Assembly: GCA_903940125.1 (NCBI GenBank)
Contig: CAJAJL010000118.1
Location: 1 to 64,000, forward strand
Reading direction: 5' to 3'
Origin: an uncultured Chlorobiaceae bacterium
GTDB lineage: Bacteria; Bacteroidota; Chlorobiia; Chlorobiales; Chlorobiaceae
Length of the DNA stretch: 64,000 nt
How positions within the stretch are numbered: position 1 is the first letter of the stretch; every line of letters starts with the position of its first letter. Shown piece by piece: positions 31,903-55,429 of the stretch. Below the pieces are notes generated by a model. The model ran no database searches. It was not told the origin of the DNA and was given only the letters and a program-made list of their open reading frames with translations. The translations under genes and the position numbers were made by a program.

Positions 31903-31931
31903 ATACCATATTTATGGTATTTTTATGGTAT
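31903..31931 (+). promoter_or_regulatory. Operator-like palindrome with a third half-site
   Basis: ATACCATA-TT-TATGGTAT is a perfect eight-base dyad (31903-31920). A third copy of TATGGTAT follows at 31924-31931. The set lies upstream of the structured leader of the sulfate transporter, where a repressor or activator of sulfur genes would bind. The regulator is unknown. Confidence 0.55.
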
Positions 31932-31996
31932 ATGCTTGGAGAGCTTGAAAAGATTGGGTTTTATTAACCGTTATGAATTTAACGTAGAGACTATGA

Positions 31997-32105
31997 GCAC
32001 TATACCTGAAAGAACTGTTCGCTGCTCCAGCACTTCGTGCTGTCAGGAAAGGGAGTGCACTGTAATAAGGAAATCCGGTTCGTGTCGATAGTGCAATTGA
32101 GCACT
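31997..32105 (+). ncRNA. Riboswitch-like structured leader upstream of the sulfate transporter
   Basis: A long-range helix GCACTAT (31997-32003) with ATAGTGC (32088-32094) closes a domain. Inside is a two-tier hairpin: CCTGA/TCAGG (32005-32009, 32043-32047) outside CAGCAC/GTGCTG (32028-32042). The 3' arm of the closing helix can instead pair with GCACT at 32101-32105. CCGGTTC at 32075-32081 repeats the 5' arm of the terminator that follows, so it can compete for the same 3' arm. This is how an aptamer with alternative expression-platform pairing looks. I do not recognise a known riboswitch class. A stand-alone small RNA ending at the terminator is the alternative. Confidence 0.55.
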
Positions 32106-32113
32106 TTTCAACA

Positions 32114-32152
32114 GCCGGTTCCTGATAATGCAGAGAACCGGCTTTTTTTTTT
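32114..32152 (+). terminator. Strong intrinsic terminator before cysP
   Basis: GCCGGTTC (32114-32121) pairs perfectly with GAACCGGC (32135-32142) and is followed by ten T. It lies 47 bases before the cysP start, so transcription must pass or be prevented from stopping here. This implies attenuation control of the transporter. Confidence 0.85.
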
Positions 32153-32199: not shown

Positions 32200-33216
32200 A
32201 TGAACCTTCAAGGAATAAAAAAAATAACTCTTGCTGCAGCGATCATTCTGGCCTCGGGTATACCCGGAACAATTGCCGGTGCAGCGGAAAGTTCAACACT
32301 GCTTAATGTTTCTTATGATCCAACAAGGGAGCTTTATCAGAGCGAAAACAGCGCGTTTATTCAATACTGGCAAAAGAAAAGCGGTCAAACCGTTGTAATC
32401 AACCAGTCGCACGGAGGATCAGGAAAGCAGGCTCGCGCAGTCATTGACGGACTGGAAGCTGATGTGGTAACTCTGGCTCTTGCTTATGACATCGATGCTA
32501 TCGCTGACAGCAAACTACTGGACATCAACTGGCAGAAGAGACTGGCCAGCAACAGCACTCCATATACCTCCACCATCGTCTTTGTTGTCAGAAAAGGAAA
32601 TCCAAAGCAGATCAAAAACTGGGATGATCTTATTAAACCGGGTGTATCAGTCATCACTCCAAACCCAAAAACATCCGGTGGTGCCCGCTGGAACTACCTG
32701 GCGGCATGGGGTTACAAGCAAAAACAAACCGGTTCTGCTGAGCAGGCAAAAACTTTTATCAAGGCATTATACAAGAATGTCCCGGTGCTTGATACCGGTG
32801 CCCGTGGCTCAACATTGAGCTTTGCTCAGCGCGGTCTGGGCGATGTGCTTATTGCATGGGAAAATGAAGCTCATCTGATTCTTAAAGAGTTTGGTTCTGA
32901 CAAGTATGAAATCGTTTCTCCATCGGTAAGTATACTGGCCGAACCTCCTGTAGCTGTCGTTGATAAAAATGTTGCGAAGCACGGTACCCGTAAGCTTGCA
33001 GAAGCCTATCTGAACTTCCTCTATACACCAAAGGCACAGGAGATTATTGCAGAAAACTATTACCGTCCGCGTAATCCTGCAGCTTTGAAAAAATATGCGG
33101 CGAACTTCCCCAAAATCAAGCTTTTTACCTTGGGCGAAGTGTTCGGTAACTGGCGTACTGCACAGAAAACCCATTTTAACGACGGCGGTGTTTTCGATCA
33201 GATTTACACGCCCTGA
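32200..33216 (+). CDS. cysP: Sulfate/thiosulfate-binding periplasmic protein
   Basis: 338 residues with a signal peptide (about 1-29, cut after AGA or GAA). The family core reads [17 protein letters not shown] near the start, [31 protein letters not shown], and [20 protein letters not shown]. These are the anion-binding loops of the Sbp/CysP family. The protein captures sulfate or thiosulfate in the periplasm for the CysTWA importer encoded next. GGAG lies eight bases before ATG. Sbp and CysP cannot be separated by reading, so the symbol is a choice. An upstream leader with terminator suggests attenuation. Confidence 0.9.
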
Positions 33217-33317: not shown

Positions 33318-34154
33318 ATGGGATTGTTTCAGAGAAAAAGACGCAACATTCTTCCGGGTTTCGGGCTGTCGATGGGGTACACGGTTTTTTACCTTTCGGC
33401 AATTGTCATTGTACCGCTGAGCATGATCTTTTTTAATACCATTCCTATGGGATGGGAACCATTTGTTCATGCTGTTACAGCTCCTCGTGTTCTTGCATCT
33501 TACAGACTGAGTTTTTCCACAGCTTTCTTTGCTGCGATTTTCGATGCATTGGCAGGCCTTCTGACCGCATGGGTGCTGGTGCGCTATCGTTTCCCCGGTA
33601 AAGGGCTGCTGGACGCCCTTGTCGATCTGCCTTTCGCCCTGCCAACGGCAGTAGCCGGCATCTGCTTTGCAACTCTTTATTCACCAATGGGCTGGTTTGG
33701 ACAGATCCTCGCTCACTGGAACCTGCAGATCATCAACACACCTACAGGAATAGTGATTGCACTGATATTTATCGGCTTCCCGTTTGTTGTCCGCACTATT
33801 CAGCCTGTTCTTGAAGAGGTGGAACAGGAAATTGAAGAGGCTGCGCACTGCCTTGGAGCAACACGGTGGCAGACCTTCAGGAAAATCCTTCTTCCTCATC
33901 TCTTCCCTGCTCTGCTTACGGGAGTCACTCTCGCTTTTGCCCGAGGCATCGGAGAGTACGGATCAGTAATCTTCATCGCAGGCAATCTGCCGATGAAAAC
34001 CGAGATCGCTCCATTGATGATTATGTCGAAGCTCGATCAGTTTGACTATGCTGGAGCGTCAGCCGTTGCGCTTGTGCTTCTCTGTATTTCATTTTCCATG
34101 CTTCTGCTGCTGAATGCAGTGCAGGAGTGGCAACAGAAAGAATACAATTCATAA
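33318..34154 (+). CDS. cysT: Sulfate ABC transporter permease CysT (CysU)
   Basis: 278-residue permease with six predicted helices. The EAA loop reads EEAAHCLGATRWQTFRKILLPHLFPAL. Sulfate-permease signatures are DLPFALPTAVAGI and RGIGEYGSVIFIAGNLPMKTEIAPLMI. It forms a heterodimer with CysW in the inner membrane. It lies 101 bases after cysP, with a stable hairpin between, and three bases before cysW. Confidence 0.93.
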   Translation: MGLFQRKRRNILPGFGLSMGYTVFYLSAIVIVPLSMIFFNTIPMGWEPFVHAVTAPRVLASYRLSFSTAFFAAIFDALAGLLTAWVLVRYRFPGKGLLDALVDLPFALPTAVAGICFATLYSPMGWFGQILAHWNLQIINTPTGIVIALIFIGFPFVVRTIQPVLEEVEQEIEEAAHCLGATRWQTFRKILLPHLFPALLTGVTLAFARGIGEYGSVIFIAGNLPMKTEIAPLMIMSKLDQFDYAGASAVALVLLCISFSMLLLLNAVQEWQQKEYNS

Positions 34155-34157
34155 TCC

Positions 34158-35027
34158 ATGCCACAACCCGAATCAGCGAAGAGTACTCCACCCGTTGTCA
34201 AAAAAAGAATAACCGATCCTCGATCAGTTCAGGTTTTTCTGGTCGGATTTACCTATCTCTTTTTTATCGGATTTATCTTTCTGCCGCTTGGACTGGTTTT
34301 TTCCCAGGCTTTCCAGAAAGGATGGAGCTTTTATCTTGAATCCATCCGAGAACCATACGCTATAGAAGCGGTAAAACTAACGCTTCTGACTGTCGCCATT
34401 GTTGTACCGGTTAATGCTGTTTTCGGTGTGGCAGCTGCATGGGCTATTACGAAATTCAACTTCAAGGGAAAGAGCGCTCTGAAAAGCCTGCTTGACCTTC
34501 CCTTTGCAGTCTCTCCGGTTATTGCCGGTCTTATTTTTGTCCTCCTTGTCGGCAGCCGGACAACTTTTGGTTCATGGCTTGGTGAACATGGTATAAAAAT
34601 TATCTTTTCAACCCCGGGAATTATCATAGCCACCATATTTGTAACGTTTCCGTTTATCGCCCGCGAACTGATACCTTTAATGGAAGCTCAGGGAAGGGAT
34701 GAAGAGGAAGCAGCCCTGACACTGGGTGCAAAAGGATGGCAGATTTTTGGAAAAATCACTCTTCCAAATATACGATGGGGACTTATATACGGCATGATTC
34801 TTTGCGGAGCGCGCTCAATCGGAGAGTTTGGCGCGGTATCTGTAGTTTCGGGACATATCCGCGGGCAGACGAACACCATTCCGCTGCATGTTGAAATTCT
34901 CTACAGCGAATACAACTTTACGGCATCGTTTGCCGTTGCATCACTTCTCGTCTTTCTTGCTCTGCTTACTGTGGTTATCAAGGGTGGAATAGAAAAACAA
35001 TTTCAGAAAAAAAGCTTTCATCTTTAG
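34158..35027 (+). CDS. cysW: Sulfate ABC transporter permease CysW
   Basis: 289 residues with six helices and an EAA loop [27 protein letters not shown]. The CysW signature is [23 protein letters not shown], followed by [13 protein letters not shown]. It starts three bases after the cysT stop and ends eight bases before cysA. Normal length; no anomalies. Confidence 0.94.
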
Positions 35028-35035
35028 GATCTGAC

Positions 35036-36109
35036 ATGGGTATAGAACTGCAGAACATTACCAAAACATTTGGCGAGTACAAAGCGATTGACAATCTCAG
35101 TCTAAGCATACCTTCAGGAGATCTGATTGCTCTTCTGGGTCCTTCGGGATGTGGGAAAACCACGCTGCTACGCATTATTGCCGGATTGGAACTGGCCGAC
35201 TCAGGAAAAATCATTCTTGAAAACAAGGATACCACGAACCTTCCTCCACGAGAAAAAAATGTCGGTTTCGTTTTTCAGCATTATGCACTGTTCAGACGTC
35301 TTACTGTTTTTGAAAATGTAGCTTTCGGGCTTAAAGTGCTCCCGTTCAGACAACGCCCTGCACGGAAGGAAATACGCGAAAGGGTGGAACATCTTCTGAA
35401 GCTGGTACAGATGGATTGGGCGCTTAAACGTTACCCTTCGCAACTTTCAGGCGGTCAGCGTCAGCGTGTTGCTTTGGCAAGAGCTTTAGCCGTGAACCCC
35501 AGAGTTCTCCTCCTTGATGAACCATTTTCAGCATTGGATGCAAAGGTACGGCAGGAACTTCGACGCTGGTTAAGAAAACTGCACGATGAAATCCACGTCA
35601 CCAGTATTTTCGTTACCCACGACCAGGAAGAGGCTCTTGAACTGGCTGATAAAATTGTCGTGATCAACAAAGGCCGGATTGAACAACAGGGAACCCCGCA
35701 GGAGGTCTACGATCATCCGGCAAATGCCTTTGTCTACAACTTTCTGGGAAATGTCAACGTCTTTCATGGACGTATCAAAAACGGCAAGGTCAGCCTCGGT
35801 AATCACCATCTTGATGTGCCTGATGAGCTGAAAAACGTTGAAGAAAAAACAAGTCAGACCTTTGTACGGCCTCATGAAATCGGTATAAGCAGAATACGCA
35901 GTAACGACAATGACCTTGAAGGAACGATCCGTGAGGTTCGTCTTCAGGGTGGACAGATAGGATTGAACATAGAGTGCGAAGGCCTTGACGGAGCCATTGA
36001 AGCTGAAGTCCCGAGAGAGCTTTTTATAAATCTTCAACTTGCCAAAGGGGTTCAGGTTTTTGTTACCATTAACCGTGTCCGAGTGTTTACCGGGGATTAT
36101 GAGATTTAA
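35036..36109 (+). CDS. cysA: Sulfate/thiosulfate ABC transporter ATPase
   Basis: 357 residues. The ABC domain (about 1-235) has Walker [15 protein letters not shown]-loop [20 protein letters not shown], signature [15 protein letters not shown], Walker [13 protein letters not shown] and switch [16 protein letters not shown]-like C-terminal domain follows (about 240-355). It drives sulfate import through CysT/CysW. The '[14 protein letters not shown]' and '[15 protein letters not shown]' stretches are typical of CysA. Confidence 0.95.
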
Positions 36110-53779: not shown

Positions 53780-54916
53780 TCAGCCAAGCGCACTCTGCAG
53801 ATCAGTTATAAGATCATCGCGATCTTCAATCCCTACAGAGAGCCTTATTATTGAATCCGTTATCCCTGCTGCCAGTCTATGCTCGCTATCCATTGAAGCA
53901 TGGCTCATCGTTGCCGGATGCTCAATCAGCGATTCAACTCCTCCAAGGCTTTCAGCAAGCGCAAAAAGCTTTGTAGCCTTCAGTACTCTGTAAAGTTCCT
54001 CAAGTGGCCCGTCAAGCTCAAAAGAGACCATGCCACCAAAACTGCTTTGCTGTTTTTTAGCCAGCTCATGCTGCGGATGGGCTGGAAGGCCTGGATAAAA
54101 CACCCTCTTAACCTTTGGATGCCTGTCAAGAAACTCTGCAACAGCAAGTGCATTTCTCTCATGCTCACGCATCCGTACCACAAGAGTTTTAATACCGCGA
54201 AGCACAAGCCAGCAATCGAAAGGCTGGGCACAGGTTCCAAGGGCATTGACAAGAAACTTCAAACGACTGTCGAGATCCTCGCTGTTCGAGAGCACTGCTC
54301 CGCCAACAACATCGGAGTGGCCATTGAGGTACTTGGTGGTCGAATGAACCACAACGTCAGCCCCAAGTTCAAATGGCTTCTGGCCATAAGGAGAGAGAAA
54401 GGTATTGTCAACAATGGTTAAAAGGCCTCTCTCTTTTGCAAGAGCCGAAACCGCCGAAATATCAACAAGGTTCAGAAGCGGATTGGAAGGTGTTTCAACC
54501 CACACTGCCCTGGTATTATCATTCACAAACGGAAGAAGATTTGATGCATCCTGAAGGTTGACAAAATGCACCCTGATACCGAAATGCTCTTCAACGGTTT
54601 TCATCAGTCTTGAGGTGCCACCATAACAGTCGTCTGTACAGATAATCTCGTCGCCTGACCGGAAAAGATTCAGCGTTGTTGTAATCGCTGCCATACCGGT
54701 GGTTACCGCGACAGCTGAAGTGCATCCTTCAAGTGCACAAAGACTGTCTTCAAGTGCTTTGCGAGTAGGGTTGCCGCTTCTCGTATAATCAAATCCCCGA
54801 TGCTTCCCGATATCCTCAAAAACAAAGGTTGAGGATTGGTAAATAGGTGTCATAATGGCGCCATATGCCTTGTCAGGTGCTACTCCGGCGTGAATTGTGT
54901 CAGTCTGAAAACTCAT
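53780..54916 (-). CDS. metB: Cystathionine gamma-synthase / gamma-lyase family PLP enzyme
   Basis: 378 residues of the Cys/Met metabolism PLP-enzyme family. The PLP Lys is about 195 in VVVHSTTKYLNGHSDVVGG, with YTRSGNPTR near 45, VTTGMAA near 72 and SLGGVESLIEHPATMSHA near the end. It either makes cystathionine from activated homoserine and cysteine (MetB) or cleaves it (MetC/CGL); the sequence does not decide. The symbol is tentative. A long leader RNA with an intrinsic terminator precedes the start, so expression is probably attenuated by a sulfur metabolite (inference). Confidence 0.85.
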   Translation of the reverse strand: MSFQTDTIHAGVAPDKAYGAIMTPIYQSSTFVFEDIGKHRGFDYTRSGNPTRKALEDSLCALEGCTSAVAVTTGMAAITTTLNLFRSGDEIICTDDCYGGTSRLMKTVEEHFGIRVHFVNLQDASNLLPFVNDNTRAVWVETPSNPLLNLVDISAVSALAKERGLLTIVDNTFLSPYGQKPFELGADVVVHSTTKYLNGHSDVVGGAVLSNSEDLDSRLKFLVNALGTCAQPFDCWLVLRGIKTLVVRMREHERNALAVAEFLDRHPKVKRVFYPGLPAHPQHELAKKQQSSFGGMVSFELDGPLEELYRVLKATKLFALAESLGGVESLIEHPATMSHASMDSEHRLAAGITDSIIRLSVGIEDRDDLITDLQSALG

Positions 54917-54987: not shown

Positions 54988-55172
54988 TTTATTACATAAC
55001 TCTGTTTCTTATGGCAGTGCCTGAAGCGGCAAACCTGTTTTGAAAAGAGAGGCTGAAAAAAGCTCTTTTTCACTCATCGTTCTTCAGCTTCATCTGAAAT
55101 ATCCAGATGCATAGAGTGCAGAAGTAGAATGTGGCACCGTGTCCTGTTAAGAATAACAGAATCGGTTGTCAA
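54954..55172 (-). ncRNA. Structured leader RNA upstream of metB, riboswitch-like
   Basis: After a TTGACA (-35-like, plus 55167-55172) the minus strand holds a chain of hairpins: CACTC/GAGTG enclosing CATCTG/CAGATG, an alternative GCTGAA/TTCAGC, AAAAGAG/CTCTTTT, TGCC/GGCA, and then the terminator. A GGTGCCACATTCTAC stretch opens the leader. Competing pairings (CAGATG region with GCTGAA region) and the terminator before a Met/Cys gene suggest metabolite control. S-box and SAM-II signatures were looked for and not found. The exact start is inferred. Confidence 0.45.
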
Positions 55173-55429
55173 GGCTTCATCGGGTCTATTCCCTCAGCCT
55201 TTCTTGATGACCAGCAATGCGAAAAAAGAACAAATTCACAATCGTTAATATACGATATCGCATAATAAAAACAATAAGCCAACACGCTCATTCCTCAATT
55301 TGATTTGATTGAGACGTTTGCAAATGAAGCTTCCGAGAATACTGGATTCATCGCATAAACCCGGAATGACAGATTGGAACGGGCGGAATGATTGGTACAC
55401 TTTCAGACCATACCTTGGTTTTTTCCCAA
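55173..55429. other. Intergenic region, no gene seen
   Basis: About 260 bases between the metB leader and the tmRNA terminator. No credible reading frame or RNA was found. Its part near 55340-55370 (CCGGAATGACAG) resembles common dispersed intergenic repeats but no second copy lies in the window. Confidence 0.3.

Follow-up and report, generated by a model that had tools for sequence, protein, structure and literature searches.

What decides whether the sulfate transporter genes of this Chlorobiaceae bacterium are transcribed? In the window, by which the whole analysed stretch of 64,000 nucleotides is meant, cysPTWA lies behind a structured leader that was originally predicted to be a candidate new riboswitch class, possibly with a sulfur compound as its ligand. 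The features concerned are the following.

31997..32003, + strand: 5' arm of the proposed closing helix of the leader (partner 32088-32094), kept in close relatives only
32200..33216, + strand: CysP/Sbp, substrate-binding protein of the sulfate ABC transporter, first gene under the proposed control (NF008022 and TIGR00971 over cut-off)
33318..34154, + strand: CysT permease (TIGR02139 over cut-off)
34158..35027, + strand: CysW permease (TIGR02140 over cut-off)
35036..36109, + strand: CysA ATPase (TIGR00968 over cut-off; CysA_C_terminal)

The RNA elements behind that prediction are present as described. The closing helix (GCACTAT, 31997-32003, with ATAGTGC, 32088-32094) is complementary at 7/7 positions, an inner two-tier hairpin joins CAGCAC (32028-32033) to GTGCTG (32037-32042) and the flanking CCTGA (32005-32009) to TCAGG (32043-32047), and a competing hairpin pairs TGCACT (32056-32061) with AGTGCA (32090-32095). 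A copy of CCGGTTC is found at 32075-32081, the original being part of the terminator 5' arm (32115-32121), and the terminator stem is followed by ten T (32143-32152), with the cysP start at 32200 a further 47 nt on. The folding energy of the leader is -64.5 kcal/mol (z = -2.5), a value matched by 2 of 200 dinucleotide shuffles. That no known RNA class is recognisable here was also borne out, since nothing beyond chance matches at the leader came out of Rfam at either the gathering or a relaxed threshold, with neither a known riboswitch aptamer family nor a T-box sequence or structure among them. What the 5' regions of cysP relatives conserve is a short ORF, not RNA helices, and the leader is very probably a ribosome-mediated transcription attenuator that senses cysteine via charged tRNA-Cys.

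Elsewhere in the window, Rfam matches a tmRNA and a SAM-I riboswitch (55071-55213, - strand, 54 bits). The latter, a genuine riboswitch for the methionine side of sulfur metabolism, lies upstream of a gene (53780-54916, - strand) that, judged by eye, is presumably a PLP enzyme of Cys/Met metabolism.

The reading frame in the leader

Leaders were found by comparing the 5' regions of about 50 cysP relatives, mostly from Chlorobiaceae. The resulting set of 41 comprises the window and 40 Chlorobiaceae relatives, nearly all of them located before cysP. The coding features in the window are:

31993..32091, + strand: leader peptide ORF, MSTIPERTVRCSSTSCCQERECTVIRKSGSCR and stop, 32 codons, frame kept in 41 leaders
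32023..32025, + strand: Cys codon 11
32038..32043, + strand: tandem Cys codons 16-17 (TGC TGT) with the proposed regulatory role, where the ribosome would stall, from the leader alignment
32056..32058, + strand: Cys codon 22
32083..32085, + strand: Cys codon 31, in the antiterminator 5' side; a conserved TGT that may reflect RNA pairing

The ORF starts with ATG and has 32 codons in most of the 41 leaders, some others running past the usual stop, and in several leaders a length reduction of exactly 9 or 12 nt leaves the reading frame intact. Among the 29 ungapped leaders, codon 17 encodes Cys in 29 and codon 16 in 28 (the exception reads Ser-Cys), while codon 15 is also Cys in 21. The mean number of Cys codons per leader (n = 41) is 4.9 in the ORF frame. 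The two remaining frames have means of 0.44 and 0.85 and contain stops in 33/41 and 32/41 leaders respectively. For the ORF in the window, the chance of at least five Cys including a CC pair in an open shuffled frame is P = 0.00085. A few more distant leaders (L035 and L042) retain only part of the Cys pattern.

Outside the Cys codons the peptide drifts freely, with a nonsynonymous/synonymous rate ratio of about 0.93 in close leader pairs and hardly any conservation of non-Cys residues, which fits a leader peptide whose codons matter and whose product does not. Against the attenuator reading, the Shine-Dalgarno match of the ORF in the window is weak (-1.7 kcal/mol), and the mean of the 41 leaders is -3.5 kcal/mol, versus -2.9 for shuffled sequence and -7.3 for cysP. 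The ORF has the appearance of a translated frame, and we infer that it is translated.

Terminator, antiterminator and the proposed switch

Downstream of the tandem Cys codons, the leader contains the elements between which a moving or waiting ribosome could choose:

32068..32079, + strand: antiterminator 5' arm (segment 2), AGGAAATCCGGT, pairing with the terminator 5' arm before the 3' arm is made
32090..32105, + strand: antiterminator inner hairpin AGTGC/GCACT, starting within the leader stop codon (predicted fold)
32113..32152, + strand: intrinsic terminator (segments 3 and 4) with ten T, in all 41 leaders

The terminator lies about 121 nt from the ATG in most leaders, and 94.6% of the cells of its stem are paired in an alignment of 34 leaders, with covariation that was reached by 1 of 500 shuffles. 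The segment AGGAAAUCCGG (32068-32078; also AGGAAATCCGG) begins about 24 nt past the tandem Cys codons and, in the window and its ten-sequence clade, is predicted to pair with the terminator 5' arm around the inner hairpin to give an extended antiterminator. A second clade pairs GUGUAGGUAAC against GUUCCUGACAC instead, so that in the predicted folds pairing with the terminator 5' arm is retained across clades while its register shifts. Compared with shuffled upstream sequence, the antiterminator energy gives z = -2.98 in the window and a mean z of -1.5 over the 41 leaders, 17 of which reach p <= 0.05, although these sequences are related and the results hence not independent. RNAalifold found no single consensus antiterminator in a subset of 30 leaders, where the consensus fold consists of the terminator only and the antiterminator appears within clades only. 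In the clade alignments, covariation of the antiterminator arms did not rise above that of shuffles, and the antiterminator step therefore rests on position and energy.

The CCGGTTC copy had originally been expected to take over the 3' arm of the terminator. Close relatives could form such a pairing, yet the best partner is not the same from clade to clade, and the copy is better explained by palindromic CCGG pairing with the terminator 5' arm as part of the antiterminator. Since CCGG is self-complementary, the stalled-ribosome model is better served by pairing with the 5' arm than by capture of the 3' arm.

Predicted folds of the window with a ribosome placed at the stop codon have the antiterminator pairing blocked and only the terminator formed, whereas a ribosome placed at the Cys codons leaves the antiterminator able to form before the terminator. 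In full-length equilibrium folds of the window the terminator wins in every state, a stalled ribosome included, so that the switch would have to act kinetically, while transcription is under way. The leader combines a short Cys-rich ORF, a terminator between this ORF and the first gene, and a competing antiterminator downstream of the stall codons, the last being predicted in the window and in most relatives.

In the proposed mechanism, RNA polymerase would transcribe the 32-codon ORF with its Cys codons (16-17, plus 11, 22 and 31) and then the intrinsic terminator. With Cys-tRNA plentiful, the ribosome would reach the stop codon (32089-32091) and cover the antiterminator 5' side, upon which the terminator would form and cysPTWA would stay untranscribed. 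When cysteine is short, the ribosome would wait at codons 16-17, leaving the RNA from about 32068 free to pair with the terminator 5' arm, so that the terminator would fail and the sulfate transporter would be made. Sulfate uptake feeds cysteine synthesis, which makes cysPTWA a sensible target of cysteine attenuation. Translation, stalling, readthrough and the on/off outcome are all steps that we infer from the sequence.

The original reading, a true riboswitch in which binding of a sulfur metabolite to the leader RNA would switch the terminator and no translation would be needed, has in its favour a structured leader with mutually exclusive helices and a terminator, and the ten closest relatives mostly retain both the closing and the inner helix. 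It is nevertheless very unlikely, as Rfam has no match at the leader and the closing helix does not hold up beyond the nearest relatives. In the ten closest leaders 87% of its cells are paired, with covariation not above shuffles, and across 34 leaders 50% are paired, with covariation below shuffles and the helix absent in most; beyond that closest group the helix thus does not pass the covariation test by which the original prediction was to be judged. Moreover, there is no conserved aptamer-like core, and the best-conserved feature upstream of the terminator is the in-frame pair of Cys codons, which an aptamer would not need. With its 5' arm inside codons 2-4 of the ORF and its 3' arm overlapping the stop codon, the closing helix would be opened by a translating ribosome. 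In the clade of the window, the helix may still serve as a classical segment-1:segment-2 pairing. What stands of the original proposal is transcription attenuation of a sulfate transporter and the link to a sulfur compound, but not the riboswitch, the signal being better explained by charged tRNA-Cys read by the ribosome than by an RNA-bound ligand.

If the ORF instead encoded a functional small Cys-rich protein, for example a metal- or thiol-binding one, and the terminator were constitutive, the conservation of an ORF with about 16% Cys would be accounted for, as would the C-terminal Cys-Arg that is conserved in many leaders. The near-neutral drift of the non-Cys residues argues against such a protein, as does the coincidence of the C-terminal codons with the antiterminator arm, and unrelated poly-Cys leaders occupy the same position before other sulfur genes; this explanation is even more improbable than the riboswitch. 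A Cys T-box, or another tRNA- or protein-binding leader, would sense the same signal as the attenuator, and is the least probable of the three, given that Rfam has no match at either threshold and that a conserved reading frame forms no part of a T-box. A T-box before hisS has been reported in Chlorobia (PMC2965389).

Cys-codon leaders and an upstream element at other sulfur loci

A covariance model built from the leader matched cysP leaders across Chlorobium and in a few genomes of a second genus, and several weaker matches proved to be other leaders with Cys-codon runs and a terminator. Beyond the class, in other families of the phylum, the matches were weak, many covering only the terminator part. 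Two candidates from genus g2 (L177 and L178) were rejected as Cys leaders, having terminators but weak Cys runs or none.

A DUF4395/O-acetylhomoserine-sulfhydrylase locus, a porin gene and an SsuA-type transporter each have an unrelated leader of their own, in which 3-7 consecutive Cys codons are combined with a terminator. In the genome of the window, a leader ending in YIMCCCCCSLQMHSDKRISGSTT stands before the DUF4395 gene, which is followed by an O-acetylhomoserine/O-acetylserine sulfhydrylase gene and, further on, by a serine O-acetyltransferase gene:

L281:4153-4623: DUF4395 gene in the genome of the window (related loci L221-L250)

Within the class, at least three consecutive Cys codons, and up to seven, are found in the leaders of 20 of the 24 DUF4395 genes examined. 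A serine O-acetyltransferase-like gene followed by a family 2B encapsulin shell gene (L281:8272-10716) was also observed close to the DUF4395 locus.

The same genome has a leader containing SSCCCCLLMDADILN before a porin-like gene (with only a weak porin match), and one beginning with MTPHNISNSSSCCCRLRIRL before an ABC transporter. The binding protein of this transporter has the SsuA sulfonate family as its best match, at a score below the family cut-off. A weaker candidate containing CSDIYCC (MIIETILHTFCSDIYCCHLQVIVE) heads a cluster (L184, G000:C69:6500-26385) that encodes two variant radical-SAM proteins and several parts of SsuA-type ABC transporters and also contains a second cysP copy, which has no Cys leader directly before it. 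When runs of four Cys codons in short ATG frames were considered elsewhere in the genome, a terminator followed only the porin leader; to this the DUF4395 leader, which was read from other loci, adds a second case. By their sequence, the Cys leaders before several sulfur loci look like a cysteine-attenuation regulon.

Upstream of the cysP leader lie two further conserved features:

31904..31938, + strand: conserved DNA element TACCATATTTATGGTATTTTTATGGTATATGCTTG, candidate activator/promoter site, with tandem GGTAT repeats 11 bp apart and an inverted TACC
31960..31968, + strand: conserved TTTATTAAC, possible -10 region of the leader promoter, a function suggested by the upstream alignment

A sigma-70 scan did not recognise TTTATTAAC. 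The pattern of the GGTAT element is TACCNTATTTAYGGTATNTTTAYGGTATNTGCTTG, with sites at G000:C13:6472, C29:603, C69:16513, C69:21712 and C28:24318 (loci L284-L290) in addition to the window. The core has five exact matches in the 3-Mb genome, which are exact by construction because the core was defined from these five sites, and no further exact match in the whole genome. All five are at sulfur-uptake loci or Cys-leader genes: at cysP, at the second cysP, at the head of the cluster, at the porin leader and, on the opposite strand, near the SsuA-type transporter. A site with two mismatches precedes the sulfite reductase/PAPS reductase operon found elsewhere in the same genome, and the element was matched in 40 of 98 genomes of the class, compared with none for a reversed-pattern control. 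This distribution suggests control of initiation by some factor on top of attenuation, with the element as a candidate sulfur-regulator site.

An element with one mismatch was also seen upstream of a frameshifted remnant (L289, G000:C69 near 22284), which we take by eye to resemble an arylsulfatase (VMSGKWHLG).

Taken together, these loci make it fairly probable that green sulfur bacteria possess a genome-wide cysteine-attenuation regulon, in which independent poly-Cys leaders and terminators would control sulfate uptake, an SsuA-type transporter, a porin and the DUF4395/O-acetylhomoserine-sulfhydrylase genes, layered on a previously undescribed GGTAT transcription factor site and tying DUF4395 to cysteine supply.

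Relation to known attenuators and meaning

Classical attenuators are those of the trp, his, leu and ilv leader peptides. The cysP leader resembles them in its peptide rich in regulatory codons, its competition of antiterminator and terminator, and its coupling of transcription to translation, but differs in that cysteine is sensed, the targets serve nutrient uptake and the antiterminator changes its register from clade to clade. Among described leaders, the closest is the uORFC-8-2 motif found before cysS in Rhodobacterales, for which ribosome-mediated attenuation by uncharged tRNA-Cys has been proposed (Brewer et al. 2021, PMC8632094). Both have a short uORF, tandem Cys codons (14-15 there, 16-17 here) and an intrinsic terminator, a likeness of layout. 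The Rhodobacterales motif belongs to another phylum and has a single reported target, the cysteinyl-tRNA synthetase gene cysS, whereas the leaders described here stand before a sulfate transporter and at several loci, and the cysP leader is not upstream of cysS.

Cys-rich leader peptides have also been described before cys operons of Mycobacterium, Propionibacterium and Bifidobacterium (Seliverstov et al. 2005, PMC1262725; Canestrari et al. 2020, as cited elsewhere), and the mycobacterial ones are cited as translation attenuation. Common to these actinobacterial leaders and the cysP leader are a short ORF in front of sulfur-assimilation genes, in which several Cys codons follow one another, and cysteine as the signal. 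The actinobacterial leaders have no obvious intrinsic terminator, while that of the cysP leader is strong and conserved. In the literature searched, outside which most subscription journals fall, cysteine attenuation in Chlorobi is not described, and cysteine-codon attenuation with an intrinsic terminator is found only before cysS of Rhodobacterales. The principle is known from Rhodobacterales cysS and the actinobacterial cys leaders, while the lineage, the target genes and the scale of the regulon appear to be new.

For the sulfate transporter of these bacteria, the riboswitch hypothesis is replaced by an attenuation mechanism that is directly testable. The GGTAT element is a candidate promoter or operator site for sulfur limitation in Chlorobium, and the combination of Cys leaders with a sulfhydrylase neighbour is a functional clue for the uncharacterised membrane protein DUF4395. 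If several unrelated-looking Cys leaders operate in one genome, Chlorobiaceae would be using cysteine attenuation as a strategy at the level of a regulon.
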